Shown here one piece after another: positions 5,594 through 24,266 of a stretch of DNA of 52,163 nucleotides; positions within the stretch are counted from its first letter, which is position 1, and each line of letters opens with the position of its first letter. The notes beneath the pieces were generated by a model, which saw only the letters and a program-made list of their open reading frames with translations, did no database searches and was not told where the DNA came from. A program made the position numbers and the translations under genes. The stretch is from Burkholderiales bacterium. Lineage in GTDB: Bacteria > Pseudomonadota > Gammaproteobacteria > Burkholderiales > JABEVD01. Where the stretch lies: NCBI GenBank assembly GCA_019753155.1, contig JAIELG010000041.1:1-52163 (forward strand), given 5' to 3'.

Positions 5594-7429
5594 ATGACTA
5601 AGTTCAAGAAAATAGCTGTTGCACTGATGTTCTCCGGGGCCATGCATGCACAAGCCGCTTCGGTTAGCCGGGCGCCGCTTGTCACGGGAACCACTTACAC
5701 CATTTCCGTCGGCATCGCCAACACCGATCCTGCTGCGGCCTCGCCTCTTCTCACCACATACGGCACGCTGAATGCCACGGCAGACGCCAACCAGCAACTC
5801 CAGTTCCAGTTCCCGGCGTCCACATTCACGAACTGCACCCAGCCCATGCTGCTCGTGATCCAGGATCCGAACAATATCGTGGTGCGCAGGGATGTCGTTC
5901 CCTGTCCCACATCGTCTTCGGCGGATGAGCCGGTCGGCGTCACTCCGAATACCACCACCCAGGCGCAAGTGAATTTGGTTGCAGGAACCGACCCGATATC
6001 CACGGTCTTTTCCAATCTGTTCGTGCGCAACAATCTTGCCGACAACGAACTGCAGATCGTCGGTACGGCGATCAAGCACGGCATCAGCAACGCCGGTGGA
6101 TTCATCGATTATCTGAAAACCACTCGCGGCGTTACCCAGCAGCAGATCGACACCTACAACAGCAACATCAATGCCAGGCTGACGGACCCCAATTCGGGTT
6201 ACAACGTATTGATGAATGCCGCCGCTAACGCCACGGCAAACTCCGTCGACGACAGCTCGAATCGAGGAAAAGCGGCGGGATTGCTGCTCCAGATCCTGCT
6301 CGATGCGGCCGACGACCCGAACCGCCTTCCCCTGCCTACCGATATTCCGCGCGATTTTATAGTCGAAGCGGTCGATGCCATGGGATCCATTGTCGCTCCC
6401 GAACTTCTGGCATCCAATGCCAAATATCTGGGGGGAGATACCACGCAGCTTTCGGACGCGGCGATGAGCAGCGTGCAATCGACCTCCCAGAGCGCCATCA
6501 AGAAACTCAAGGCGAACCGGGTGATAGCCGATTTCACCGATGCGATGACGGTGCTCGGGGCAAGCGCAGCCGACAAGAAGCAGTTCGCTGATGCAGTGAC
6601 CGCCCTGAGTGCCGCCATGGATACCGCTTATGCGAAATTCGAAGCTGCGGCATTCAACAGCGACCCGAATTCGGCGAATGCGGAAGGGGATGCGAATACG
6701 ATCAATACTGCTGAAACTTCCCTTTCCGGCGACCTGGGCGCCGCCTTCAGTACTTTCCAACAGGCTCTCTCGGCAAGCAATGCCCGCATGTCCACGATGA
6801 TCCAGAATATGTGTCCGTTGAGCGGGGGGGCGGCAGGAGCGGCGGGATGCCCGACGCAGGCGGATCTGCAGGTGCCTGCTTACGATGCGAACGGGAACCC
6901 TGTTGTCGATAAAAACAACAATCCTGTGATGCTTAACTGGCCGATCAACAAGGTGGTGCTCACCGACTGGATTTCGGGCGTGCTCAATGCCGGCGGATCG
7001 CTGGCTTATACGCGGGCCGCTGATGCCATTCCTGCTTCGGTTATTCCATGGGTAGGCAATTGCACAAAAAGCGGGACAGTGGTGACGCCAATGGTTCTCG
7101 ATCTGGCATCCTGCACCGCAGCCGGGGGAGCCTGGACCAGAACCGATTTCACCACGTACAGTGGAATGGTTGCTTCGGAGAGTGCCCAGATGGGAGTCGG
7201 CGAGGATATTTCCATTCTTGGTGCGATCAGGGATGCCGCGCTTGTCACTGCTTACGCCATCACCGACCAGGCTGCCCAAATGCAGGCTGTCAGTGCGGCG
7301 GAGAAAGCGTATACGGACGGCATAATAAGGCTTGCAATGAACTTGAGCGGAACCACTAACGGCACTGCCGCAATCGGCATGGCGCAGCAATTCGCAATCA
7401 TCATCCTGATGCAGGATCCGAGCCTCTAA
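5594..7429 (+). CDS. Large secreted protein of unknown function
   Basis: 611 residues. An N-terminal Sec signal (KKIAVALMFSGAMHAQA, cleavage near residue 21-22 at AQA-A) sends it to the periplasm or outside. I do not recognise the mature protein. It is Ala/Thr/Asn/Asp-rich and low in basic residues, with long helical-looking stretches between about 130 and 400. Its few cysteines appear to occur in pairs (MCPLSGG and GCPTQ; NCTKSG and ASCTAAG), which suggests extracytoplasmic disulphides. A GGGAGAG ribosome site lies at 5584-5590, ten bases after the tiny lipoprotein gene, so the two form an operon. A terminator follows at 7449. The 649-residue frame on the other strand is a shadow of this gene. 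Confidence 0.75.
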   Translation: MTKFKKIAVALMFSGAMHAQAASVSRAPLVTGTTYTISVGIANTDPAAASPLLTTYGTLNATADANQQLQFQFPASTFTNCTQPMLLVIQDPNNIVVRRDVVPCPTSSSADEPVGVTPNTTTQAQVNLVAGTDPISTVFSNLFVRNNLADNELQIVGTAIKHGISNAGGFIDYLKTTRGVTQQQIDTYNSNINARLTDPNSGYNVLMNAAANATANSVDDSSNRGKAAGLLLQILLDAADDPNRLPLPTDIPRDFIVEAVDAMGSIVAPELLASNAKYLGGDTTQLSDAAMSSVQSTSQSAIKKLKANRVIADFTDAMTVLGASAADKKQFADAVTALSAAMDTAYAKFEAAAFNSDPNSANAEGDANTINTAETSLSGDLGAAFSTFQQALSASNARMSTMIQNMCPLSGGAAGAAGCPTQADLQVPAYDANGNPVVDKNNNPVMLNWPINKVVLTDWISGVLNAGGSLAYTRAADAIPASVIPWVGNCTKSGTVVTPMVLDLASCTAAGGAWTRTDFTTYSGMVASESAQMGVGEDISILGAIRDAALVTAYAITDQAAQMQAVSAAEKAYTDGIIRLAMNLSGTTNGTAAIGMAQQFAIIILMQDPSL

Positions 7430-7448
7430 GGTTCCGGCATCCTGTGCG

Positions 7449-7479
7449 GCGGGCACGACGGCAGTCATGCCCGCTTTTT
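7449..7479 (+). terminator. Rho-independent terminator after the secreted-protein gene
   Basis: GCGGGCA and TGCCCGC form a seven-pair stem with a 12-base loop, followed by five T. It lies 20 bases after the stop of the 611-residue protein gene. Confidence 0.75.
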
Positions 7480-7503
7480 GATTTCCGGGTGTAGAATCCT
7501 CAA

Positions 7504-8157
7504 ATGCAAACAAAGCGCCTGTTGCTGGCCTGCTCGGTTTCCCTTTTGCTGCATCTGTTCATTTTTGCGGGAGTCGGAGCGAAAAAGCCTTCCCCCTTCC
7601 AGCCCATCAGCATCCGGGTGGAACTTGCAACATACCGGAAGCCCATAGAAAAAATCCCGGAAGCGATCCCTCCCGAAGAAAAATCCCCGCCTGAAGACGC
7701 GCCGCCTGAGGACGCTCCGTCTGAAGAAAATTTGCCGGAGGAGAAGCCCGCGGATGAAAAACCGCCCGAGATCCCGAGAAACGAGAGCGTGAAAGCGCTT
7801 TCGATGATGTGGGGAAAAACCGCCATGATAAATGCCAGGATGCGGCAGATGCAGCGCTTCATCGAGGCCGCGAGGGCGAATCTTTCCGCCCAGTTTGCAA
7901 AGACCATGGCCCCGAAAGAAAGAGAAGTCTATGCGGATCAGAAATGCAGCGCCATGCTCGAAGGCGAGACAGCACCCAGGGTTAGCTGTCCCGATCCGAA
8001 TCTTTCCGAGCTGATCCTGAAAAAAATAGACTGGGCTTCGCTTCCGAAGCCCAGTGAATTCGGACTTCCCCGGCTCGATATGGAAATCGGCATGGCGCTT
8101 TCCGTGCAGGGAATCGGTATCGGATTCCAGTTCCGCGAAGCCGCCGTGCCGCGATAG
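7504..8157 (+). CDS. Membrane-anchored proline/glutamate-rich protein, TonB-like architecture
   Basis: 217 residues. One N-terminal transmembrane helix (about 5-26) is followed by a Pro/Glu-rich stretch from about 40 to 95 with repeats such as PPEDAP and EEKPADEKPP, then a soluble domain with two cysteines (QKCSAML and VSCPDP). This inner-membrane anchor plus stiff periplasmic linker resembles TonB or TolA, and the C-terminal part has a weak DLS..L..K...WASLP pattern. I cannot place the C-terminal domain in a family, and no exbB/exbD-like genes lie nearby. TonB-like is a description of the architecture, not a functional claim. Confidence 0.6.
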   Translation: MQTKRLLLACSVSLLLHLFIFAGVGAKKPSPFQPISIRVELATYRKPIEKIPEAIPPEEKSPPEDAPPEDAPSEENLPEEKPADEKPPEIPRNESVKALSMMWGKTAMINARMRQMQRFIEAARANLSAQFAKTMAPKEREVYADQKCSAMLEGETAPRVSCPDPNLSELILKKIDWASLPKPSEFGLPRLDMEIGMALSVQGIGIGFQFREAAVPR

Positions 8158-8167
8158 GTTTTACACA

Positions 8168-8228
8168 TGATATAATCCGCTCCTAAGAGCGAGGCCGGGA
8201 ACCGGAAGGTTTTGACGGTACAACCTTC
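8168..8228 (+). promoter_or_regulatory. Extended -10 promoter and leader hairpin before the GGDEF-EAL gene
   Basis: TGATATAAT at 8168-8176 is a perfect extended -10 element, and no good -35 is visible, as is common for such promoters. The predicted leader of about 70 bases contains a hairpin with arms GAAGGTT (8205-8211) and AACCTTC (8222-8228). The leader does not resemble the known cyclic-di-GMP riboswitch consensus, so I call only the promoter and the hairpin. Confidence 0.5.
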
Positions 8229-8252
8229 AAATCGCCCATAGGGGGTCGGGAC

Positions 8253-10229
8253 ATGCAGAGAATCAGGCGTGAAAATATTGTTCTGGTGTCGGAACAGGAT
8301 CCGTCCATGCGCTCGATGCTGGGCGGGAAAATGATGGAACTGGGTTTCCGGGTACTCGATGCCGAGGATTGGCGCCAGGCCGTCCGGTTGGCTGAAGAGC
8401 ATGAGCCCGATCTGGTTTTGCTGGGTGAGGGCATGGACGATGCGCTTGGAGCGATGCAACGCCTCGACCTGAAGCAGACCACCCTCGTTCTGGTCGTCGA
8501 AGCGGAATCGCTGGAAAGCGTCGATGTGAGCGGCGTTGCCGATTTTATCCTGAAGCCGGTGAACTGGGCGTCATTCGGGCATCGCATCCGCCGTGCGATG
8601 CAGGCCGGCGATGCCGTGCGGAAGCTCGTGTTCGTGGCAGAGGCCATTCCGGACAAGATGTTCCGGATGGGAAGCGACGGCATCTGCCGGAACTTCAATT
8701 ATTTGAACGGAGCGCCCGGCAAGCCCGTGGCGGATTATTTCCCGGACGATATTGCCGAGATTGTTCTCGATGAGGCCAGGGTCGCCATGAGAAGCGGCAA
8801 GGTTCAGGAGGTCGAGTATGCCGTTCAGGTCGAAGAAGGCATTCGCAATTACGAAGCTCGCCTTGCGCCGCTGAGCGCGGACGAGGCGCTTGTCTTGGTT
8901 CGCGACATCAGCGAAAGGAAGCGGGCCGAAGAAAGGATGCGGTACATCGCCTATTTCGACAGTCTCACCGGCTTGCCGAATCGGCTGGCGTTCCTGGCGA
9001 GTCTGGAAGGCGAACTGAAGCGCAGCGAAAAGGACAACAAGAAGTTTGCGGTGCTTTTCCTGGATATCGATGCTTTCAAGAATATCAATGAATTGCTTGG
9101 GCGAAATGTCGGCGATCATCTGCTTCAGGGCGTGGCGGAAAGGTTGAGAGCCTGTGTGCGCCAAAGAGATCTGATATCCCGTTTCAATGACATGCCCAAC
9201 CATGTTGCCAGATTTGGCGGGGACGAATTCACCGTGCTGCTGACGGGCATCGAGCGCGTCGAAAATGCGTTTGCGGTTGCGAAGCGCTTCAAGGAGGCGA
9301 TGGGGCATCCGTTCATCATCGATTCCAGGGAAATTATCGTGACTTGCAGCATCGGAATCGCAATGTGTCCGGAAGACAGCAGGGATGCGGCATCGCTTCT
9401 CAAATTTGCGGAATTCGCCATGCATCGCGCCAAGGATTCGGGTAAGGACAGAATCCAGCTTTACAGCAGTTCGCTGACGAAACAAATGCTTTACCGCCGC
9501 GATCTGGAAAGCAGTTTGCGCAAGGCACTGGAAAAGGGGGATTTCACGCTCCAATACCAGCCCCAAATCGAGCTTGCAAGTTCGAGGATAACCGGAGCTG
9601 AAGCGCTCATCCGTTGGAAGCGTTCCTCAAATATCCTCGTTCCCCCGGACGAATTCATTCCGCTTGCGGAGGAAACGGGACTCATCCTGCAGATGGGCGA
9701 ATGGGTTCTGCGCACGGCATGCGCGCAGGCAAAAACATGGCAAGACAGGGGGCTGGGAGAAATCCGGGTTTCCGTCAATTTGTCTTCCCGTCAACTCAGG
9801 GATAAGGACTTCAAACGGAAAGCGCTCGCCATTCTCGATGAAACCGGGCTTGCGCCGGATCTGCTCGAACTGGAACTGACCGAGAGCAGCCTGATGAATG
9901 ACGCCGGCACCGACATGCTACGCGGGCTCATGGAAGCGGGCGTTCATATCGCCGTTGATCGATTCGGCACGGGGTATTCTTCGCTGGGCCAGCTCAAACG
10001 TTTTCGCCTGAATAAATTGAAAATAGACAGGAGCTTCATCGCCAACCTGGAATCCAGCCCCGACGATGCCGACATGACGCAGGCCATCATCGCCATGGCG
10101 CATGGACTCAAGATGGAAGTCGTTGCAATGGGGGTCGAAACCATGGCGCAGGCCGATTTGTTGCGCGGATACGGCTGCCCACGGGCTCAGGGGTTCTTGT
10201 TCGACCATAATGCAGAATCCCTGATGTAA
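8253..10229 (+). CDS. Hybrid REC-PAS-GGDEF-EAL protein; likely cyclase with degenerate REC and EAL domains
   Basis: 658 residues. A receiver-like domain spans about 6-115, a PAS-like domain 125-222, GGDEF 230-402 and EAL 410-655. The receiver lacks the phospho-acceptor: where DLVLLD is expected it reads DLVLLG (Gly58), although the Lys101-Pro102 pair remains. The diguanylate cyclase motif is intact (GGDEF 322-326), preceded by a longer loop than usual between an RQRD motif and GGDEF. The EAL motif (450-452), Asn509, Glu544, Lys590 and Gln646 are present, but the DDFGTG motif reads DRFGTG (Arg570) and AEGVE reads AMGVE (Met626). Both lost positions are needed for catalysis in studied phosphodiesterases. 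I infer a cyclic-di-GMP cyclase with a binding or silent EAL domain. Confidence 0.92.
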   Translation: MQRIRRENIVLVSEQDPSMRSMLGGKMMELGFRVLDAEDWRQAVRLAEEHEPDLVLLGEGMDDALGAMQRLDLKQTTLVLVVEAESLESVDVSGVADFILKPVNWASFGHRIRRAMQAGDAVRKLVFVAEAIPDKMFRMGSDGICRNFNYLNGAPGKPVADYFPDDIAEIVLDEARVAMRSGKVQEVEYAVQVEEGIRNYEARLAPLSADEALVLVRDISERKRAEERMRYIAYFDSLTGLPNRLAFLASLEGELKRSEKDNKKFAVLFLDIDAFKNINELLGRNVGDHLLQGVAERLRACVRQRDLISRFNDMPNHVARFGGDEFTVLLTGIERVENAFAVAKRFKEAMGHPFIIDSREIIVTCSIGIAMCPEDSRDAASLLKFAEFAMHRAKDSGKDRIQLYSSSLTKQMLYRRDLESSLRKALEKGDFTLQYQPQIELASSRITGAEALIRWKRSSNILVPPDEFIPLAEETGLILQMGEWVLRTACAQAKTWQDRGLGEIRVSVNLSSRQLRDKDFKRKALAILDETGLAPDLLELELTESSLMNDAGTDMLRGLMEAGVHIAVDRFGTGYSSLGQLKRFRLNKLKIDRSFIANLESSPDDADMTQAIIAMAHGLKMEVVAMGVETMAQADLLRGYGCPRAQGFLFDHNAESLM

Positions 10230-10241
10230 AATGAAGCATAG

Positions 10242-11147
<906 letters not shown>

Positions 11148-11151
11148 AAAA

Positions 11152-11793
11152 TTGCGCGCTAGGGTATGGGTTTTCGATCTCGACAATACGCTGCATGATG
11201 CAACGCCGCATATTTTCCCCCATATCAACCGGGGCATGACGGAGTACCTGCAAAAACATCTGGGTCTGGATCGGGAAGAGGCCGACAGCCTGAGAAAATT
11301 CTACTGGGAGCGTTATGGCGCGACCCTGCACGGGATGATGCTTCATCACGACATCAAGCCGGGGCATTTCCTGGCGCAGACTCATCATTTTCCCGAGCTT
11401 GCGAAGATGGTGGTGGGCGAGTCCCAGTTGAGGCATTCCCTGCGCGATTTTTCGGGGAAGAAGATTGTTTTTTCCAACGCGCCGCTGCATTATGCGCGTG
11501 CCGTGTTGAGAATATTGAGGATAGATGACCTGTTCGACGGGGTTTTTTCGATAGAATATGCAAAATTCAGGCCCAAGCCGGATGCATATGGTTTTTTCCG
11601 GATTTTCAGGAAAATGGGGCTGAATCCATCCCGATTCATCATGGTCGAGGATACGCTCGCCAATCTCAGGATGGCGAAGAAGCTCGGAATGAAAACGGTC
11701 TGGGTGACTGATTCGCGCCATAGGCCGTCCTATGTCGACATGAATGTCTCGTCGATCCGTGACCTTTCGAGAAGGCAATTCATATTCAACTAG
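11152..11793 (+). CDS. Pyrimidine 5'-nucleotidase, HAD superfamily
   Basis: 213 residues. The HAD motif I DxDxT appears as FDLDNTLHDA at about 8-17. Motif II is FSNAP near 106 and motif III/IV is KPDAYGFF plus VEDTLAN. This SDT1/PpnN-like pattern fits yeast Sdt1-type pyrimidine nucleotidases. The only plausible start is TTG at 11152, because any later start would remove motif I; no strong ribosome site precedes it, so it is probably coupled to argB, whose stop lies four bases upstream. It likely dephosphorylates UMP/CMP or damaged pyrimidine nucleotides in the cytoplasm. Confidence 0.85.
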   Translation: MRARVWVFDLDNTLHDATPHIFPHINRGMTEYLQKHLGLDREEADSLRKFYWERYGATLHGMMLHHDIKPGHFLAQTHHFPELAKMVVGESQLRHSLRDFSGKKIVFSNAPLHYARAVLRILRIDDLFDGVFSIEYAKFRPKPDAYGFFRIFRKMGLNPSRFIMVEDTLANLRMAKKLGMKTVWVTDSRHRPSYVDMNVSSIRDLSRRQFIFN

Positions 11794-11802
11794 AGGACAA
11801 GC

Positions 11803-12381
11803 ATGTCGGCAAAAACGGGCGAAAGAAAGCTGCAAATCCTGCAAACCCTGGCGCAAATGCTGCAATTGCCCAGCGGCGAGAAAATCACGACCGCATCCCT
11901 TGCGGCAAGGCTCGATGTTTCCGAGGCTGCGCTTTACCGGCATTTCGCCAGCAAGGCGCAGATGTTCGAGGGTCTGATCGAGTTCATCGAGCAGACGCTT
12001 TTCGGGCTGATCAACAAGATTTCGGCGGAAGATGCGAGCGGACTGAAGCAGGTCGAGGCGATCATGTCGCTGCTTCTGGGTTTTGCGAAAAAGAATCCGG
12101 GGATGACCCGCGTGCTGATCGGGGACGCGCTCGTCAATGAAAACGAGCGGCTTCAGGGCAGGATCAACCAGTTGCACGACAGGCTGGAAGCGACATTGAA
12201 GCAGTCCCTGCGTTTTGCAACGAGCCAGGGCGAGATATCCGGCGATCTGGACGAAGCGGTTCAGGCGAATATTCTGATGTGCTATGTCGTCGGACGCTGG
12301 CACCAGTTCGCAAAAAGCGGCTTCAGGCGCGACCCCATGGAGTCCTGGACTCAGCAGTGGGCGATGCTGTCGAAATTCTAA
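11803..12381 (+). CDS. slmA: Nucleoid occlusion factor SlmA (TetR family)
   Basis: 192 residues. The N-terminal TetR helix-turn-helix reads LAARLDVSEAALYRHFASKA, followed by the SlmA-type segment EFIEQTLFGLINKI. SlmA binds specific chromosomal sites and blocks FtsZ ring assembly over the nucleoid. It follows the nucleotidase by nine bases, with a GAGGACAAG ribosome site before the ATG. It is the last core gene before the foreign Dnd block; composition changes right after its stop codon. Confidence 0.9.
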   Translation: MSAKTGERKLQILQTLAQMLQLPSGEKITTASLAARLDVSEAALYRHFASKAQMFEGLIEFIEQTLFGLINKISAEDASGLKQVEAIMSLLLGFAKKNPGMTRVLIGDALVNENERLQGRINQLHDRLEATLKQSLRFATSQGEISGDLDEAVQANILMCYVVGRWHQFAKSGFRRDPMESWTQQWAMLSKF

Positions 12382-12387
12382 CCGTGT

Positions 12388-12418
12388 TTGCCCGGATGGC
12401 CTGGAAACGGGGGATAAT
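12388..12418 (+). promoter_or_regulatory. Weak promoter candidate before the dnd operon
   Basis: TTGCCC (12388-12393) and GATAAT (12413-12418) are separated by 19 bases, a long spacer. It is the best sigma-70-like pair in the 104-base gap between slmA and dndC. No operator or DndB-type regulator gene is visible. Confidence 0.25.
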
Positions 12419-12485
12419 GTAAAGCATATGCCCGTCCTTCTCCTGGACTCGGCCACTACAATTGCGATGTCGCTAACAGGCCTCA

Positions 12486-13649
12486 ATGATGCATATGTTT
12501 AACGAAATACTGGATGCTCGTGCCGATGGCGTCCCAGGACCGGTCTTGATGAGGAGCGAGACTGACTTTTGGGATGCGGTGGTGCATTCCGTTCGTGAGG
12601 AATATCTATCGGAAACTCAGGATTATCCATGGATTATCGGGTTTTCTGGCGGCAAGGATTCGACCGTTGTTGCCCAGGCTGTTTTCGAGGCCTTGCTGCA
12701 AATTCCGCCATTTCAGCGAAAGCGACATGTCCATTTGGTATCCAACGATACTCAGGTAGAAAGCCCGCTGGTCATGGCGCACTTGATCAAAGTGCAAGCT
12801 GCGATTGCCAGCATGGCTGAAAGCTTTCGCTTGCCTGTCACGGTCGTGACGACCCGCCCGGCTCCGGACAAAACTTTCTGGACGCTGTTGATCGGAAAAG
12901 GCTACCCCAGCCCGAACCAGACGATGCGCTGGTGCACCGATCGCCTGAAAATTCTGCCGACCAGCCGGTACATACTGGACAACGTATCTGCCCATGGCGC
13001 GGCTATCGTGGTACTGGGCGTGCGCCTTGATGAAAGTGAAAGTCGCCGTAATTCCATCAACAAGTTTCAAAATCTCGCGGGCTCGGATCTCACGCCGCAC
13101 AACGAGTTGCCGGGGGCGTTTATTTATCGCCCAATCGTTCACCTCACTGTGGATGACGTGTGGGAAGTGCTGGGTCGTTGTCAGCCCCCATGGGGGGGGG
13201 CTCATCGAGACCTGATCCAATTGTACCGGGATGCCGAAGGGGGTGAATGCCCGGTGGTGTTGAGCAAGGATGAGGCACCCGGGTGCGGAACGTCGAATAG
13301 CCGGTTTGGATGCTGGACATGTACGGTGGTCGAGAAAGATAAAAGCATTCAGGGATTCATTGATGTGGGCAATCGCCACTTCAAATCCCTGGTGGATTTC
13401 CGGGACTGGCTCAAAGAAATCCGCAACAAGCCTGAATACAGGCAGGTAGAACGCAGAAACGGTCGGACTCAATTCGATCTTGTTACAGGCAAGCATATTC
13501 CTGGGCCGTTCACCATTCAGGCACGTAAGATGATCCTTGACCGCCTGCGGGAAACCGAGGAAGAATTCGGCGGCCAGCTTATCAGCAAGGGAGAAATAGA
13601 CATCATCGAGTCAACATGGGCTGAAGAACTGGTTCAGAAGGGGGAGTGA
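12486..13649 (+). CDS. dndC: DNA phosphorothioation sulfurtransferase DndC, short form
   Basis: 387 residues. It has the ATP-pyrophosphatase loop SGGKDST at 54-60, then the DndC marks SNDTQVESP (87-93), RWCTDRLKI (Cys150), GVRLDESESRR, and a cysteine-rich NSRFGCWTCTVVEKDKS block. Cys255, Cys267, Cys276 and Cys279, with Cys150, are the candidate iron-sulphur ligands. DndC activates the DNA phosphate and works with a cysteine desulfurase to place sulphur in the backbone. Known DndC proteins are usually around 500 residues, while this one stops after the LISKGEIDIIEST segment. The next small gene may supply the missing tail. No dndA or dndB accompanies it. Confidence 0.9.
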   Translation: MMHMFNEILDARADGVPGPVLMRSETDFWDAVVHSVREEYLSETQDYPWIIGFSGGKDSTVVAQAVFEALLQIPPFQRKRHVHLVSNDTQVESPLVMAHLIKVQAAIASMAESFRLPVTVVTTRPAPDKTFWTLLIGKGYPSPNQTMRWCTDRLKILPTSRYILDNVSAHGAAIVVLGVRLDESESRRNSINKFQNLAGSDLTPHNELPGAFIYRPIVHLTVDDVWEVLGRCQPPWGGAHRDLIQLYRDAEGGECPVVLSKDEAPGCGTSNSRFGCWTCTVVEKDKSIQGFIDVGNRHFKSLVDFRDWLKEIRNKPEYRQVERRNGRTQFDLVTGKHIPGPFTIQARKMILDRLRETEEEFGGQLISKGEIDIIESTWAEELVQKGE

Positions 13650-13655
13650 ATAAAA

Positions 13656-13856
13656 ATGCCAGAAGTGTATTTGGGTGATCTGCCGCTATGGTCGGACAAC
13701 GTAGCCAGAGATGTAATGGAGAAATTGTGCCAAAAACATAATGTTCCTGTAGATGTGTTCACAGAGCTTGTGGCAATTCAACGCCATAACCAAGACAGAA
13801 GCAAGGCGTTTGGTATTTATGACGCCATCAGCGAAGCCTTGAGCCGGATGGATTGA
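13656..13856 (+). CDS. Small Dnd-associated protein, possible detached DndC C-terminal domain
   Basis: 66 residues, six bases after dndC and nine before dndD, so clearly part of the operon. It is mostly helical: KLWS-like PLWSDNVARDVM, then CQKHNVPVDVFTELVAIQR, then a conserved-looking GIYDAISEALSRMD end. From memory, full-length DndC proteins end with a similar helical segment (LC.EHGV....L..L...... GIY..L...L), so this may be the DndC tail encoded as a separate chain. It also resembles what databases call a DNA-modification-associated small protein. The biochemical role is unknown. Confidence 0.7.
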   Translation: MPEVYLGDLPLWSDNVARDVMEKLCQKHNVPVDVFTELVAIQRHNQDRSKAFGIYDAISEALSRMD

Positions 13857-13865
13857 AAGAAAATC

Positions 13866-15911
13866 ATGTGGATTTCCCGGCTTGAACTCATCAATTTCAA
13901 AAGCTACCAACATCAGGTTTTTGAATTTCCCTCGCCCAGTCAAGGCAAGAACATCATTCTTATAGGTGGGATGAATGGCTACGGTAAGACGACCATTCTG
14001 GAAGCGCTCTATCTGGGACTCTATGGTAAAGACTCCATCATCCACCTTGCCCGCGCTGGCATCAAAGGTGACGTGGGCTACCCGGTTTTTCTTGAGCGCG
14101 CTTTACACGGTCATGCATTAAAAACCAAACGCGATACCATGAGTGTAATGGTGGAAATCAATACCAACGACCATGAAGGCTTTCAGGTCATTCGCAAGTG
14201 GTTTTTTTCACCCAAAGGCGATTGGAGAGACGAAGAAATTCTGATATACGATATCCGTGATGGCATTCGTATCCAAACTCGCAATGCGGATCAGATTGAA
14301 GAAATATTGGATCAATACTTCGTTCCTGCACACTTGGCACCATTCTTCTTCTTTGATGGTGAAGAAGTGAAGCGTTTAGCCGACCATAACCGTGTTGAGC
14401 AAATCAAAATGGGCATGGAAGGTTTGCTTGGCGTGGTTCTGCTCCGCAAATTAGAAACCCGGTTGCAGCAGTATCAGGCTAACAAGAGCCAGGGTGTGCC
14501 AAAAGTCGATGAAGAAAAACACCGTCAATTGCTGGAGGAACTCACTCAGCACGAGCAACTGCTGGAAGAATCGCAACAGAAGAAAATTAAGGCTCATGAG
14601 GAATTGGACATACTCAAAGCCGAACGTAGTAATTTGATGCACCGTATCATGGCACTTGGAGGCGGTGGTGGCGATATTGCAAATGCACGAGATATCGTTG
14701 AAGAATTGACCCGTGCGGAAATTGACCTGAAAGAATGCCAGGATGATGTGGAGCAGGTATTGGGATCCAGTCTCTCATTCCACTTGATTTCGCAGGAGAT
14801 TCGTAACGCTTATGTGAATCAGATAAAGGCTGAAGAAGAACGTATTAAGTGGGACACCCGTAAGAACAGTCTGGAACCAGATAAAGAGAAATTTGTTTCG
14901 CGTTTTTTCGCAGATGATGCCCCAGCATTTAATCCTGACCTTACCATTGAACAGCATACGACGATTACACACCGCCTAGAAACTGCGTGGGAAAGCCTGT
15001 TTTATCCTTTACCAGAGGGCTGTGCGGAAGAAATCATCCACGATTATATCCATGGCGCGAAACGTCAGCAGGTTATTGGCATGATGGAAAATTTAAGCAT
15101 CGGTGCTCAGGACATACTTGGCCTTCTGGAACGACGGGATAACCTTCATGAGAAGATTCGCAACCTTCGCAACCGTCTGGCCAAGATTGAAGGGATTGAC
15201 CGCGATGGAACATTGGCCGGACTCAATACCGAAATGAGTGCCATACATGGCAAAATTGACCAGAAACAGCACGAACTAGGGGCAATTGAGAAGCAAGTTT
15301 CCACGCTCCAAATCAACATCAACAACGAACGTGCCAACTACCAGCGCGAACACGAGAAGTTTCTGAAAGCAAATCCGGTAAAATCGGATGTTGCCCGCGC
15401 AGATAGGGTATGCAAATTAATCGAGGAACTGGTTCCCAGCCTTTATGCGCTCAAGACAAACCGTTTAGCCTATGCCATGACTAACGTTTTCCAGCAACTA
15501 TCACACAAGAAGCAGGTGGCTCGAATTGAAATTGATGAAACAGGGAAATCCCGTCTCATCAGTTTCGAAGGCAACGAAATCACATTTGATAAATCTGCGG
15601 GTGAAGACCAGTTATTTGCCACTTCGCTGCTAGCAGGGCTTGCCGAAATCTCTGGCATTAAGGCACCATTGGTGGTGGATACCCCATTGGCACGCTTGGA
15701 TAGCAACCATCGCAAAAATATCTTGAATTACTGGATTTCTGATAAGAGCCGACAGGTATTTCTGTTGAGCCAAGACAAGGAAATCGATGCGCAAGTTTAC
15801 AATGAACTACATGACAGCATTGCGCAGTCATATCTGCTTCAACACCAGCAAATCGGTAATGGCGTGGGTATGACGGTAGCCACCAAAAATGCCTATTTCG
15901 GAGGTCAGTGA
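13866..15911 (+). CDS. dndD: DNA sulfur modification protein DndD (SMC/RecN-like ATPase)
   Basis: 681 residues. The N-terminal half of the ATPase carries Walker A in GMNGYGKTT (35-43), following the LELINFKSY start typical of SMC/Rad50-type proteins. A long coiled-coil region (about 190-520) connects to the C-terminal half, with the ABC-type signature SAGEDQLFATS (about 577) and Walker B PLVVDTPLARLD (about 600). No CxxC zinc hook is visible. DndD supplies ATPase activity and probably strand nicking or DNA handling in phosphorothioation, in a DndCDE complex. Its stop overlaps the next gene by four bases (ATGA). Confidence 0.9.
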   Translation: MWISRLELINFKSYQHQVFEFPSPSQGKNIILIGGMNGYGKTTILEALYLGLYGKDSIIHLARAGIKGDVGYPVFLERALHGHALKTKRDTMSVMVEINTNDHEGFQVIRKWFFSPKGDWRDEEILIYDIRDGIRIQTRNADQIEEILDQYFVPAHLAPFFFFDGEEVKRLADHNRVEQIKMGMEGLLGVVLLRKLETRLQQYQANKSQGVPKVDEEKHRQLLEELTQHEQLLEESQQKKIKAHEELDILKAERSNLMHRIMALGGGGGDIANARDIVEELTRAEIDLKECQDDVEQVLGSSLSFHLISQEIRNAYVNQIKAEEERIKWDTRKNSLEPDKEKFVSRFFADDAPAFNPDLTIEQHTTITHRLETAWESLFYPLPEGCAEEIIHDYIHGAKRQQVIGMMENLSIGAQDILGLLERRDNLHEKIRNLRNRLAKIEGIDRDGTLAGLNTEMSAIHGKIDQKQHELGAIEKQVSTLQININNERANYQREHEKFLKANPVKSDVARADRVCKLIEELVPSLYALKTNRLAYAMTNVFQQLSHKKQVARIEIDETGKSRLISFEGNEITFDKSAGEDQLFATSLLAGLAEISGIKAPLVVDTPLARLDSNHRKNILNYWISDKSRQVFLLSQDKEIDAQVYNELHDSIAQSYLLQHQQIGNGVGMTVATKNAYFGGQ

Positions 15912-17443
15912 TGAGTGATATCAGCTTGGAAAATGTGCTGGTCTCCAATTTCCAGACTAGCACAGAAGCCGACAAAATTACTGAAATGCTAAAAGGGAAG
16001 TTGGGCCTTTCCGTGCGGTATCGTGTTGCACGCCTTGCCATTGGACGCTCGCTGGGCGAACCAAACTTCCCCACACAAAATGTGGATGCCCAAGGGAAAA
16101 CCATTAAGGGCGATTTGCTGTTTGGATTGGATGAATACCCGTTATGGGTGGGGTTGCTCATTACCAACATCAAAAAGCACGTCCAAAGACCTGAGCTTAC
16201 GATTGCAACTTTACAAAGTGCCGTCAGGCGGCATTGGCATCGAGGCATCATGCTTTTGCTGGATGACTGGAACGAAGCGGGGGAGGACCCTCGAAGGTTT
16301 TGGGAAATATTGATTCATCGCCGGGCCATGCTGCCCGATACTGTTTCCAAGTCGGGCAAGTTTGGCGAGATTCATCAAGACGACGGGATGGGTTTCACTG
16401 GCATGGCCAAAGCCGTCTATGTCGATTTGGGTAGGGGTGTAGATGCGCCATACGATCAATACAAACGTCTGGTGAATGGCGTTGGCACTTCTCCTCACAT
16501 GGCAATTATGGGGCAGTCCGGATCAGGCAAGACTCGCATCATGAAAGAGGTATTGAAGCAGATTCATATACAAACCACTGCACCAGTAATTTTGTTGGAC
16601 CTGGGTAAGGGCGACTTGGCCAACGATACGGCATTGATTGACACATTGGGAGTGAAAATCCTGCGTGTTCCCGAAGACGGTATCCCGCTGGATATGTTTT
16701 ACGGCTCCAAACAAAACGATGAGGTGGCTACTGATACAGTAATGGGTTTTCGTGATTCATTCTCCAATGTGGTGCAAGGTAAGCTGGGGCCGAAACAACT
16801 AGACAATCTGCGGGAAGCGCTAAAACCGCTGTTTTCGACTCAAGAAAAAATAACGCTGGAAGATGTGCGCTCATGGCTTGACCAGTTCTATGAAGAGAAT
16901 GACTTGAAGATGGACAGTGTAATGTCCACCATCAACGATCTGACGCAATATACGATTTTTAGGCCAGACTACTCACCCCTGCAATTCTTTTCACAAAGCT
17001 GGATTATCACCTTTGCCCATGCTCACGACACCATCAAAAATCTGGCGGTTTTTTTGCTGATGGATGCGTTGAATACATACATGAAGCGCTCGCCAGAGGC
17101 GCCACAAGACAGTGAAGGGCATCGCGCAATCCGTTTGGTTCTCGCTGTAGATGAAGCACGTCATCTGTTATCTTCCAGACATGACGCCTTGAGCGACAAT
17201 ATCCGCCTGCATCGTTCCAAAGGCTTGGTGGTTACCCTTGCTTCACAAAGCCCGGATGACTATGATGGCAAGAGCGATGATTATATGGAAAATATTGGAT
17301 TACCCATTTGCTTCAATACGAACGCTGTAGCTACAAAAGTGCTCCAGAACATGTTTCGGGGCAAGGTGAATTTTTCCTCGCTCCCGGCTGGCGTGTTCAT
17401 GACGGTGAAGGATTCTAAGCCTATCAAGGTAAAGGCATTTTAG
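15908..17443 (+). CDS. DndE domain fused to a HerA/FtsK-type P-loop ATPase
   Basis: 511 residues. Residues about 15-135 read like a complete DndE: a KITEMLKGKLGLSVRYRVAR helix pair, IGRSLGEP, then KGDLLFGLDEYPLW and a final RRHWHRGIMLLLDDW. DndE normally is a free protein of about 110-130 residues that forms tetramers on nicked DNA. Here the chain continues into a large ATPase with Walker A GQSGSGKT (202-209), Walker B LAVDEA (412-417) and ASQSPDDYD after it, the pattern of HerA/VirB4/FtsK translocases. A fusion implies that a DNA-pumping motor is physically attached to the modification complex. Start ATG overlaps the dndD stop. The domain calls come from motif reading alone. Confidence 0.8.
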   Translation: MMSDISLENVLVSNFQTSTEADKITEMLKGKLGLSVRYRVARLAIGRSLGEPNFPTQNVDAQGKTIKGDLLFGLDEYPLWVGLLITNIKKHVQRPELTIATLQSAVRRHWHRGIMLLLDDWNEAGEDPRRFWEILIHRRAMLPDTVSKSGKFGEIHQDDGMGFTGMAKAVYVDLGRGVDAPYDQYKRLVNGVGTSPHMAIMGQSGSGKTRIMKEVLKQIHIQTTAPVILLDLGKGDLANDTALIDTLGVKILRVPEDGIPLDMFYGSKQNDEVATDTVMGFRDSFSNVVQGKLGPKQLDNLREALKPLFSTQEKITLEDVRSWLDQFYEENDLKMDSVMSTINDLTQYTIFRPDYSPLQFFSQSWIITFAHAHDTIKNLAVFLLMDALNTYMKRSPEAPQDSEGHRAIRLVLAVDEARHLLSSRHDALSDNIRLHRSKGLVVTLASQSPDDYDGKSDDYMENIGLPICFNTNAVATKVLQNMFRGKVNFSSLPAGVFMTVKDSKPIKVKAF

Positions 17444-17448
17444 GGGAA

Positions 17449-17787
17449 ATGATGAGCGATCACATGAATATGAAGCGACCGGGGCGAGCTGAAATAGAGA
17501 CTATTCTTACTTACGGACTGATAGCCGTTGTGGCCGGAGGTGGAGCTGGTGTCTACCTGCCATTGGCTATGGGCAAAAATATTAGCTCCGATGCGCTTTC
17601 GACATACATTTTTGCCATGCTTGCGCCATTTTGGGTAGATGCGTTATTGCACGAACCCTACTGGAAGAAATTGTCCAAGGTTGTTCGAATGAGGATCGGT
17701 CTTGGTTGTGCGTCGGCAGCAATCCTAGCCATTATTGCGCTCATTAGAGATGGCAAATCTTGGGATCTAGCATTAGCAGGCTGCTGA
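17449..17787 (+). CDS. Three-helix membrane protein at the end of the dnd operon, C terminus altered by an IS
   Basis: 112 residues, starting five bases after the DndE-ATPase gene with a GGGGAAATG start context, so operonic. Three hydrophobic helices lie at about 19-41, 50-67 and 82-99; the segment HEPYWKKLSKVVR lies between the last two. No family is recognised. The last three codons (A-G-C and the TGA) lie in what looks like the inverted repeat of an IS5-like element, so the natural C terminus has been replaced and the original protein may have been longer. A membrane partner for a Dnd complex would be unusual. Confidence 0.6.
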   Translation: MMSDHMNMKRPGRAEIETILTYGLIAVVAGGGAGVYLPLAMGKNISSDALSTYIFAMLAPFWVDALLHEPYWKKLSKVVRMRIGLGCASAAILAIIALIRDGKSWDLALAGC

Positions 17788-18110
17788 AAAACCCGGGCAT
17801 TCACTTGATTTGGTAAAATAGCGGCATTGTGAAACGGAGTGATGGCAATGCGAGGAATAGACGTTCAACCGAGAAATCTGTTCAGTTACATTCAACTGGA
17901 GCAACGCGTGCCGAGCCAACATCCGCTGCGCGCGATTCGCAAGATGGTTGATGTGGCACTCGGTGAAATGGACGCGCTGTTTACCCAGATGTATTCGGGC
18001 ACCGGGCGCCCCTCGATTGCGCCAGAGCGGCTGCTACGCGCCCAGATGTTGAAGATTTTGTATACGGTTCGTTCTGAGCGGCAGTTGATGGAACAGATTG
18101 CCAAGCTAGA
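17777..18110 (+). mobile_element. Left-end remnant of an IS5-family-like insertion sequence
   Basis: The segment starts with a terminal-repeat-like CAGGCTGCTGAAAAAC directly after TTAG, which fits the YTAR-type target of IS5 elements. It continues with a short leader and a transposase start. Homology to a transposase fades near 18100, and no right end is seen before the next gene at 18215. The element is therefore only a left fragment, left by a deletion or recombination that joined the Dnd block to the polysaccharide locus. The right limit is approximate. Confidence 0.7.
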
Positions 18111-18222
18111 GGCTTGGCTGGGGTCCTACATGGCGCTATTTCCAGCGAAACACTTTCACCAATGCCGATTGCGTTCTCTTCGGTTAGATACCAATTGCAC
18201 AGGTCGAAACACACATGCCTAG
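17848..18222 (+). pseudogene. Truncated IS5-type transposase (N-terminal DUF772 part)
   Basis: The frame begins MRGIDVQPRNLFSYI and continues through RVPSQHPLRAIRKMVD and the GRPSIAPERLLRAQML segment, the DUF772 start of IS5/IS1182-type transposases. After SERQLMEQI (near 18102) the familiar sequence stops, and the remaining 40 codons, up to the stop at 18222 inside the next gene, are unrelated. The catalytic DDE region is absent, so it is not functional. Confidence 0.8.
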
Positions 18223-23121: not shown

Positions 23122-23481
23122 ATGTTGACGGACGAATACAGATACAAAATCTTGAAGCATCTGGAAACCAACCCCGAGATCAGCCAGAGGAAGTTGGCGA
23201 AAGAACTCGGCATAAGCCTGGGGCGGGCAAACTATTGCCTCAAGGCCCTCATCGAAAAAGGGCTTGTGAAAGCGAATAATTTTCGCAACATGAAAAACAG
23301 GAGCGGCTACGTCTATTTCCTCACCCCGAAGGGGATCGAAGAAAAGGCCAGAATTACCTTGCAGTTTCTCAAATTCAAAATAGTCGAGTACGAAGCGCTG
23401 AAATCCGAAATCGAGAATTTGCAGCGTGAAGCCGAAGGAATTTCGCCCCCTCGCCAGGAAGTGAGGCAGGATGCTGCATAA
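23122..23481 (+). CDS. MarR-family EPS-associated transcriptional regulator
   Basis: 119 residues from the ATG at 23122, chosen because the family begins with an LTDEYRYKIL-like start; a GTG at 23110 is also in frame. A winged helix-turn-helix occupies about 8-75 (ISQRKLAKELGISLGRANYCLKALIEKGLVK), followed by a helical tail with EYEALKSEI. This is the pattern of the small MarR regulators found next to exopolysaccharide genes in exosortase-type betaproteobacteria. It probably controls the adjoining polysaccharide genes. The next gene starts inside its last codons (overlap of 11 bases). Confidence 0.88.
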   Translation: MLTDEYRYKILKHLETNPEISQRKLAKELGISLGRANYCLKALIEKGLVKANNFRNMKNRSGYVYFLTPKGIEEKARITLQFLKFKIVEYEALKSEIENLQREAEGISPPRQEVRQDAA

Positions 23482-23863
23482 CAATATGCGTTCAGTGCTG
23501 GAACAATTGTTGCTGGATGAGCCTGGCATCGAATTCGCGGTGCTGGTAGGAAGCCGTGCCGATGGTTCGGCGCATGCAGACAGCGACTGGGATATTGCTT
23601 TGCAGTGGCGTCCGCACCTTGACTGGCTGGTGGGGTTGGGCAAGGCGGAGACATTGCGCGGTAAAATGGCTGAAGCAATGGGGGTGCCATGGGACAAAAT
23701 CGATCTGATTGAGCTGCGACGTGCCAGTTTGGCGATGCGCGCCAACGTTGCCGAAAACGGAATCCCGCTCAAAGGCGAGGACTCCCTGGAATGGGCACGT
23801 TTTTTGACCCGCACCTGGCGCGAACTGGAGGATTTTTATTGGGAGCAGGCTCATGCGGCTTGA
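23471..23863 (+). CDS. mntA: MntA-like nucleotidyltransferase antitoxin (type VII toxin-antitoxin)
   Basis: 130 residues. It has the minimal nucleotidyltransferase motif GSx10DxD: Gly27-Ser28 and Asp39/Asp41 in GSRADGSAHADSDWD, with a third acidic position in KIDLIEL. MntA antitoxins add AMP groups to a tyrosine of the partner HepT and so silence it. An alternative start, ATG at 23486, is possible. It overlaps both the regulator before it and the HepT gene after it (11 bases), so the three are coupled. Confidence 0.88.
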   Translation: MLHNNMRSVLEQLLLDEPGIEFAVLVGSRADGSAHADSDWDIALQWRPHLDWLVGLGKAETLRGKMAEAMGVPWDKIDLIELRRASLAMRANVAENGIPLKGEDSLEWARFLTRTWRELEDFYWEQAHAA

Positions 23864-24266
23864 TTTGTACCAGGCGGAAACAGCGCGCATTGCCAATGAG
23901 CAGTCGGCATTGTTGATTCTGGCAAGGGAGATCATGGCACAGCGCTCCTTGAGTTTGTTAGAGCAAGGCGGTGTGTTGCACGCATTACAAGTGCTGATCG
24001 AAAACGCGATCGGTAAAGCCAAGCACCTTCTCAAGGCGCGCAATGAGCTCGTTCCTGTTTCGGCATACGATGCATTTATTGCACTCGGACGCCTGGGGGA
24101 AATCGATACGCAAAACCTTCCTGCATGGAATGCGGTGATCGGCTTGCGTAACCGTATTGTTCACGACTACATGAATGTCGATATGGGCAAGGTGCTGGAG
24201 CTGGTGACGTCCGGGAAAGATAAATTTATCACCGATTTTTTGCTCAGGTCGATTGATGTCAATTAA
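23853..24266 (+). CDS. hepT: HepT-like HEPN ribonuclease toxin (type VII toxin-antitoxin)
   Basis: 137 residues, all helical. The HEPN catalytic motif Rx4HxY is intact as R99-NRIV-H104-D-Y106, with Tyr106 the expected site of modification by MntA. HepT toxins are ribonucleases kept off by MntA-driven adenylylation. Its start overlaps the mntA stop by 11 bases, the classic tight pairing. Placement inside a polysaccharide locus suggests stabilisation of a mobile or variable segment, or phage defence. Confidence 0.88.
   Translation: MRLDLYQAETARIANEQSALLILAREIMAQRSLSLLEQGGVLHALQVLIENAIGKAKHLLKARNELVPVSAYDAFIALGRLGEIDTQNLPAWNAVIGLRNRIVHDYMNVDMGKVLELVTSGKDKFITDFLLRSIDVN

Follow-up and report, generated by a model that had tools for sequence, protein, structure and literature searches.

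The analysed window comprises positions 1-52,163 (forward strand) of contig JAIELG010000041.1 from the assembly GCA_019753155.1 of a Burkholderiales bacterium (own genome, G000); loci and genomes used for comparison are denoted by L and G numbers. Directly downstream of slmA the window contains a variant dnd operon, a candidate DNA phosphorothioation system, of five plus-strand open reading frames (ORFs) at 12486-17787, which are separated by 5-9 bases or overlap by 4 bases. The first gene encodes a short DndC (387 aa, 12486..13649), a PP-loop sulfurtransferase that consists of the core and lacks the C-terminal domain usual in DndC. It is followed by sp (66 aa, 13656..13856; family PF20306, Sp-DndD), whose product may be the DndD-docking C-terminal end of DndC as a protein of its own, and by dndD (681 aa, 13866..15911), encoding an SMC/Rad50-like ABC ATPase of the DndD clade. 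The fourth gene (511 aa, 15908..17443) encodes a fusion of a ribbon-helix-helix DndE protein (residues 15-121) with a HerA-type ATPase (residues about 190-485). The fifth is a 3'-truncated membrane-protein gene (17449..17775, ORF to 17787), whose homology to the related locus L004 stops at its end and whose intact homologues are longer. The operon ends with a remnant of an IS5-like insertion sequence (17776..18222, plus strand), recognized by a transposase fragment in profile searches and by DNA identity. The original prediction, made from the letters of the window, had listed the same five genes; all five ORFs are present, but the last of them is truncated.

The window DndC scores 344.8 bits against TIGR03183 (cut-off 290.4), covering positions 5-363 of the 447 positions of the model. 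It has the motif SGGKDS at residue 54, and the five positions 146, 262, 273, 280 and 283 (E. coli numbering) are cysteines in all 22 aligned DndC proteins, the window protein included. No solved structure matched it at 1e-3. Short DndC proteins (355-397 aa, n=12) stop where long ones (474-544 aa, n=10 including E. coli) continue, and the tails of nine long proteins comprise 82-125 residues. The small protein Sp scores 51.3 bits against PF20306 (cut-off 27.2). Judging from the profile comparisons, Sp is what in an ordinary long DndC forms the C-terminal domain, here made as a separate protein. With a profile of 13 Sp proteins, the inclusion threshold is passed by the C-terminus of eight of the nine long DndCs and by no short DndC; the remaining long protein, encoded on a plasmid of Pseudomonas aeruginosa, reaches 3.9 bits (E 0.024). 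Among 9254 six-frame pieces, the same profile finds at E<=1 only Sp ORFs and the tails of the same eight DndCs (E from 1.7e-10 to 0.005). The reverse search with a DndC-tail profile recovers 13 of 13 Sp proteins plus one marginal extra match (0.68), and the comparison of Sp with the tail by hhalign gives a probability of 97.4%. The PADLOC models of DndC also match the Sp proteins of the window (7.2e-4) and of locus L025 (2.2e-8, positions 403-457).

The distribution of the two forms agrees with this assignment. None of the nine long-DndC loci contains an Sp ORF of the DndD type, and sp adjoins dndC in ten of the 12 short-DndC loci, the exceptions being L003, which has no sp, and L056, where sp lies further along the operon. 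In the latter locus (5793-15047, a Mesorhizobium plasmid), genes for a cysteine desulfurase, a short DndC, DndD and a plain DndE are followed in one series by those for Sp, another DndD, a DndE fused to FtsK, and an AAA ATPase. In the DndC tree, whose 22 rows were chosen by similarity and are not a census, the 12 short proteins form one clade (100/100), corresponding to one change. In the window sp is in frame with dndC across a single TGA, and the DNA-level match to TIGR03183 passes through this codon. Read-through of the TGA was considered and rejected: the frames and the spacing differ in the relatives L001, L004 and L005, and thus dndC and sp are separate genes.

In E. coli B7A, residues 433-482 of DndC form the modelled interface with the globular domain of DndD, and L458D/E462A/R471A disrupted DndD binding in a pull-down, as described in PMC12193691. 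The Sp profile aligns to residues 436-485 of the E. coli DndC used here (L068). This protein comes from a strain other than B7A, and its L458, E462, R471 and five cysteines carry identical numbers. The residue matching L458 is leucine in all 13 Sp proteins and all nine DndC tails. Since Sp is homologous to the DndC region with the mapped interface, it may be the DndD dock of DndC in the form of a separate chain.

The window DndD scores 282.8 bits against TIGR03185 (cut-off 245.85), and its Walker A motif GMNGYGKT and signature SAGEDQ are intact. Among solved structures it matched only the head domains of Rad50. The best PADLOC model for this protein is PbeC (PDLC02733, 2.2e-243), so that the window DndD is labelled as PbeC. 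Consecutive genes for a small protein, an ABC ATPase and DndE are a feature that the window shares with the PbeABCD/CxC ABC-ATPase systems. However, membership in PbeABCD was rejected, as the window DndD has no CxC motif (zinc hook); the control CxC protein L059 shows CIC at position 321. The PbeC label therefore looks wrong. No PbeA-type SF2 helicase-nuclease was seen among the eight ORFs at 11.8-19.3 kb, scanned against Pfam only, and the small protein apparently belongs to another family, with only a weak match to PbeB.

The DndE part of the fusion scores 35 bits against PF08870 (cut-off 25) over residues 15-121. Its score against NCBIfam TIGR03184 is 24 bits, under the cut-off of 71.85, and therefore the window DndE is divergent. 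The ATPase part scores 23.3 bits against the HerA family PF01935 (cut-off 23.2), and the PADLOC model closest to it is that of the C-terminal ATPase in DndH, a restriction protein (2.5e-18). A profile of 16 fusions matched DptH (7es4, 1.1e-21) and DndE (7x4e, 2.3e-8) in PDB. The Walker A motif (202-209), D415/E416, R433/R436 and Q447 are invariant in six close rows. The original prediction was therefore right in assigning the short DndC, DndD and the DndE-ATPase protein, as DndC, DndD and DndE (PF08870) score above the curated cut-offs, and in describing a variant of Dnd that carries a DNA motor itself, DndE and a HerA/FtsK-type ATPase being parts of one polypeptide.

The motor is not the same in all relatives. 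The fusions of L020, L021, L022 and L056 contain an FtsK_SpoIIIE domain (130-160 bits), and those of the window, L019, L023, L024, L025 and L027 score on the HerA model PF01935 instead (21-29 bits, on either side of its cut-off of 23.2). The DndE part scores below the Pfam cut-off in L022, L024 and L026 and is not listed at 1e-3 in L020 and L027; in these low-scoring fusions it was assigned by tblastn and alignment with the window, and in L027 also by PADLOC (4.7e-5). In the DndD tree (23 rows) the proteins of the FtsK-fused loci L020-L022 join the HerA-fused clade of the window (100/100), and those of the HerA-fused loci L019, L023 and L024 lie outside this group, as does DndD1 of Mesorhizobium, whose DndE is motorless. 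The tree has some long branches, one of which is met by the CxC row, and only the starred sets were used. As FtsK-fused and HerA-fused systems interleave in this tree, the simplest reading is that the motor part has been exchanged between the two types.

The Sp, DndD and DndE/HerA genes also occur together in a different setting. In L025 (1383-10968, genome G249), type I-like methyltransferase and specificity genes are located upstream of the sp-dndD-dndE/herA trio. The trio is the same as in the window; the differences are the HsdM- and HsdS-like genes, the lack of a visible DndC, and an extra protein between Sp and DndD with a sub-threshold match to Mrr_N (23.5 bits, cut-off 29.5). A possible MADS assignment of L025 and related proteins was rejected: there are scores with mad2, mad5 and mad8, but the methyltransferase, specificity and DndH models score better. 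The whole 7.5-kb contig L027 contains an Sp-like ORF, DndD and DndE-HerA. No match to DndC was found at L025 or L027, in a search confined to these loci, and thus the trio seems not to be tied to sulfur chemistry.

As the original prediction had stated, no restriction gene was seen beside the operon, and dndFGH or pbe neighbours were not seen in the homologous loci, where flanks of about 2-10 kb were partly scanned. In profile searches the five operon proteins yielded no nuclease domain. There was also no profile match to dptFGH in G000, although the controls for these genes are weak. TIGR03237 was also silent in 11 genomes and 14 controls. TIGR03238 gave one match in 17, under the cut-off, and none in the 14 controls, and it missed five genomes where the best PADLOC model for a large protein is DndH. 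With the window ATPase as a query, proteins whose best PADLOC model is DndH were found in G137, G228, G199, G400 and G391, and in G000 only the query itself; in L015, L016 and L032 the PADLOC match to DndH covers the ATPase end only. When DptF and DptG of Priestia and the N-terminal portion of its DptH served as tblastn queries, they found only themselves. The absence of dndFGH from G000 is therefore not firm. An ORF of 247 aa elsewhere in this genome (L051, G000:C14:56690-57124) matches the HNH half (142-284) of NF045808, a family of restriction proteins for phosphorothioated DNA, at 67 bits, under the cut-off; the N-terminal half of the model is unmatched.

One possibility, raised by the original prediction, is that a single complex both marks and polices DNA: DndE-HerA would track along DNA, DndC would mark self sites, and unmarked invading DNA would be stalled or expelled by the motor, with no nuclease involved. 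The similarity of the fusion ATPase to DndH and DptH is in line with this, and so is the trio of L025, which lies behind type I-like methyltransferase and specificity genes as a motor lacking chemistry of its own. Further, no dptFGH genes are annotated in the 10-kb flanks of L020-L022, in a gene table that is incomplete. However, none of the five proteins has a nuclease domain, and a DndH-like ATPase alone does not demonstrate restriction. We consider such policing unlikely and prefer a complex that modifies DNA.

The sulfur donor would probably be encoded outside the operon. No dndA desulfurase gene is present in it, in agreement with the original prediction, and two cysteine desulfurase homologues are encoded elsewhere in the genome (G000:C10 and C13). 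In vitro, IscS is reported to replace DndA (PMC10853773). TusA-annotated sulfurtransferase genes are located directly after dndE-ftsK in two plasmids (L021:11560-11763 and L022:11521-11757), and tblastn found no such gene in the DNA of the other loci searched. According to PMC3519819, tusA is dispensable for phosphorothioation by Salmonella genes in E. coli.

Three hydrophobic segments are found in the intact homologues of the membrane protein (158 aa in L004, 168 aa in L001). In the 112-aa window ORF two exceed the threshold, and the gene of the three-helix protein named in the original prediction is not intact here. The protein is 93% identical to that of L004 over residues 2-106, where homology stops, and the loss of homology falls near 17775-17781. 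It is followed by a 127-aa transposase fragment (17839-18222), which scores 31.2 bits against DUF772, over the cut-off, and 52.2 and 42.9 bits against IS1182 and IS5_4, both under the cut-off. The insertion sequence stretch has 68.7% DNA identity to an IS5-family transposase gene over 49% of its length. A terminal-repeat-like sequence, GGCTGCTGAAAAACC, lies at 17779-17793 as a putative repeat for which no partner copy is shown. The membrane protein of G311 (219 aa), encoded after dndE-herA of that genome, gave no tblastn match with that of the window at 1e-4.

In L001 and L004 the intact membrane gene is directly followed by a gene for a DGQHR_dnd_1 protein, a relative of DndB (410 and 407 aa; 483 and 489 bits, cut-off 450). 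No dndB-type gene is present in the window, and neither TIGR03233 nor TIGR04172 has a match in G000; TIGR04172 is present in G890, the genome of L001. Because L001 and L004 carry the DGQHR gene after an intact membrane gene, it probably has been lost in the window genome together with the end of the membrane gene. The original prediction of an operon without dndB thus holds for the window and its genome but not for the whole group, as the DGQHR gene occurs in four of the ten other loci with DndC and the fusion (L001, L004, L021 and L022) in the locus DNA examined. The close relatives L002, L003 and L005 have neither the membrane gene nor the DGQHR gene in the locus DNA examined, and therefore the branch is variable in these genes. 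At this place L005 contains genes for a GHKL ATPase and a Methyltransf_35 protein. Such a pair follows dndE-herA in two distant loci, L005 (11885-14147) and L026 (6212-8534), and could be an accessory effector.

The truncated fifth gene and the insertion sequence fragment might indicate that the window copy is a decaying remnant, where the insertion cut the membrane gene, removed what came after it and left the rest non-working. The absence of the DGQHR family from the genome and the degraded copies in relatives (truncated dndD in L003 and L002, the fusion only in L006) point in the same direction. However, the four core ORFs are intact and retain their catalytic residues. The dN/dS ratios between the window and L001 are 0.064 for dndC, 0.080 for sp, 0.056 for dndD and 0.062 for dndE-herA, and the flanking genes slmA and argB have 0.064 and 0.052. 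The nonsynonymous and synonymous changes on the window branch (3/31 in dndC, 1/0 in sp, 4/45 in dndD, 7/40 in dndE-herA) show a strong synonymous bias. Moreover, DndB is not essential for modification, according to PMC8569181. We regard decay of the whole operon as quite improbable; given the intact catalytic residues and dN/dS of 0.056-0.080, the modification core is probably functional.

Taken together, the product of the operon is fairly likely to be a DndCDE-type complex for phosphorothioate modification, with a split DndC and with the motor on DndE. The gene identities, the homology of Sp to DndC, the truncation of the membrane gene and purifying selection are read directly from the sequence; from these we infer phosphorothioation, docking of Sp, action of the motor, and that the DGQHR gene was lost, as well as what this loss brought about. 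DndC (PP-loop, Fe-S) would pass sulfur onto the DNA backbone, with a housekeeping cysteine desulfurase as the probable donor. Sp, the separate 66-aa subunit, would dock on the head of DndD; DndD and the DndE part would locate target sites, and the HerA part would move the complex along DNA or load it. The membrane protein and the DGQHR gene, found in two of five close relatives, would be additional components, the DGQHR protein probably being a regulator. The insertion cut the membrane gene and probably cost the DGQHR gene, likely leaving modification on and less regulated.

Several observations weigh against this scheme. The counterpart of E462 is kept in one of 13 Sp proteins, compared with eight of nine DndC tails, and that of R471 in five of 13, compared with nine of nine; the window Sp has Q and A at these positions. 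These losses speak for a changed contact between Sp and DndD. Sp occurs in L025 and L027, where no DndC was seen, and thus may serve DndD without sulfur chemistry. The DGQHR gene was not seen in six of the ten other loci (L003, L005, L019, L020, L023 and L024). The cysteine desulfurase homologues score 305 and 293 bits, the cut-off for IscS being 643, and G000 is a draft of 59 contigs. An AlphaFold2 model of the fusion, built from six close sequences, had low confidence (mean pLDDT 40.1, pTM 0.33) and was discarded. Finally, the window Sp weakly matches the PADLOC model of PbeB (14.9 bits, E 0.0057, residues 20-39).

The last match and the Sp genes without a visible dndC would also fit another role of Sp, namely regulation or triggering instead of docking. 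A role of this kind was proposed for the small, disordered protein of CxC/Pbe systems (PMC10853773). However, two CxC small proteins (L059 and L067) are not matched by the Sp profile at E of 1 or better, and Sp is homologous to the DndC domain with the mapped DndD interface. A regulatory Sp is accordingly a rather doubtful alternative to the docking subunit.

A more general scheme, which we give about an even chance, is that DndC is modular, the dock being a portable adaptor that turned into a protein of its own (Sp) in one clade, and that the Sp-DndD-DndE/motor trio is an interchangeable DNA-tracking engine, combined with a sulfurtransferase here and acting beside a type I-like methyltransferase in L025, its HerA and FtsK motors being swappable. 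If this is true, phosphorothioation and other DNA-marking systems share one delivery vehicle. The clade offers a natural dissection of the phosphorothioation machine, with the enzyme core, the dock and the motor separate or exchanged. It allows one to ask which part sets the choice of targets, which part recruits DndC, and what a modification enzyme gains from a motor. It also offers a testable function for PF20306, which is described in Pfam only as a small protein of certain Dnd systems.

The original prediction suggested a distinct branch, but the class of Dnd systems with fused DndE-HerA/FtsK is already in print. According to PMC10853773, some Dnd systems (clade 3) have a HerA/FtsK ATPase joined to DndE, next to an ATPase related to DndD, and an earlier paper (its reference 24) is credited for these fusions. 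The window system is the same in having DndE and the motor in one polypeptide beside such an ATPase; its motor ATPase, a candidate for that clade, is similar to the ATPases of DndH. The sections of that paper that were consulted do not mention Sp as a domain of DndC, motor exchange, or the membrane and TusA genes. In the literature searched, which covers PMC10853773 partly, no description was found of the Sp-DndC homology, the docking role or the motor exchange. Thus the fused-motor Dnd type is already known, and the split DndC and the likely docking role of Sp were not found described in these sources. The canonical DndBCDE(A) systems, with or without DndFGH, share with the window the DndC, DndD and DndE families and likely the same chemistry. 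In contrast to them, the window has a short DndC with a separate Sp, a motor on DndE, no dndA in the operon and no DndFGH seen, and some of its relatives have DGQHR_dnd_1 instead of DndB.

Short peptide patterns of the fusion were scanned over 84,980 species genomes and yielded six loci (L001-L006). Matches to the fusion query were found in nine of 369 genomes of the class, six of 398 of the phylum and four of 200 of the order, the own genome being counted. Several of them share the ATPase only, and the best PADLOC model for the five that were checked is DndH. In plasmids and genomes sampled by similarity to the window, the dndC-sp-dndD-dndE/motor cassette is present in nine other loci (L001, L004, L005 and L019-L024), including plasmids of Burkholderia glumae, Rhizobium phaseoli, Aureimonas and Methylorubrum. 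The fusion is 94% identical to that of L001, which comes from the same genus and is also located beside slmA, and 89% identical to that of L004.

The operon looks horizontally acquired, as the original prediction had proposed. Among the five other genomes of the genus in the order sample the fusion is present in one, and the four genomes without a match retain argB and slmA with different genes after slmA. Synonymous divergence between the window and L001 is 0.08-0.46 in the operon, compared with 0.73 in slmA and 1.17 in argB; with two flanking genes compared, the lower divergence of the operon fits exchange between lineages. The GC content had also been noted as lower than in slmA, and it does fall from 0.53-0.60 upstream to 0.46 in dndD. 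However, it is likewise low (0.43-0.52) in the downstream 18-24 kb, and thus low GC is not specific to the operon.

Some of the related operons are decayed. The dndD gene is truncated in L003 and L002, and in L006 the fusion alone is seen, its start being incomplete. In L003 (2436-6973) a gene similar to those of phosphorothioate-dependent HNH restriction proteins (NF045808, 124.2 bits, cut-off 180) is located between dndC and the truncated dndD, and in L002 (140-2723) its homologue precedes an even shorter piece of dndD. With this arrangement the loci may have turned from producing sulfur-marked DNA to attacking it. Small ORFs at 23471-24266 of the window, judged by eye, resemble a nucleotidyltransferase/HEPN toxin-antitoxin pair. 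A similar pair is found in L004 (13008-13720), where the second ORF scores on the PADLOC model PDC-S09.

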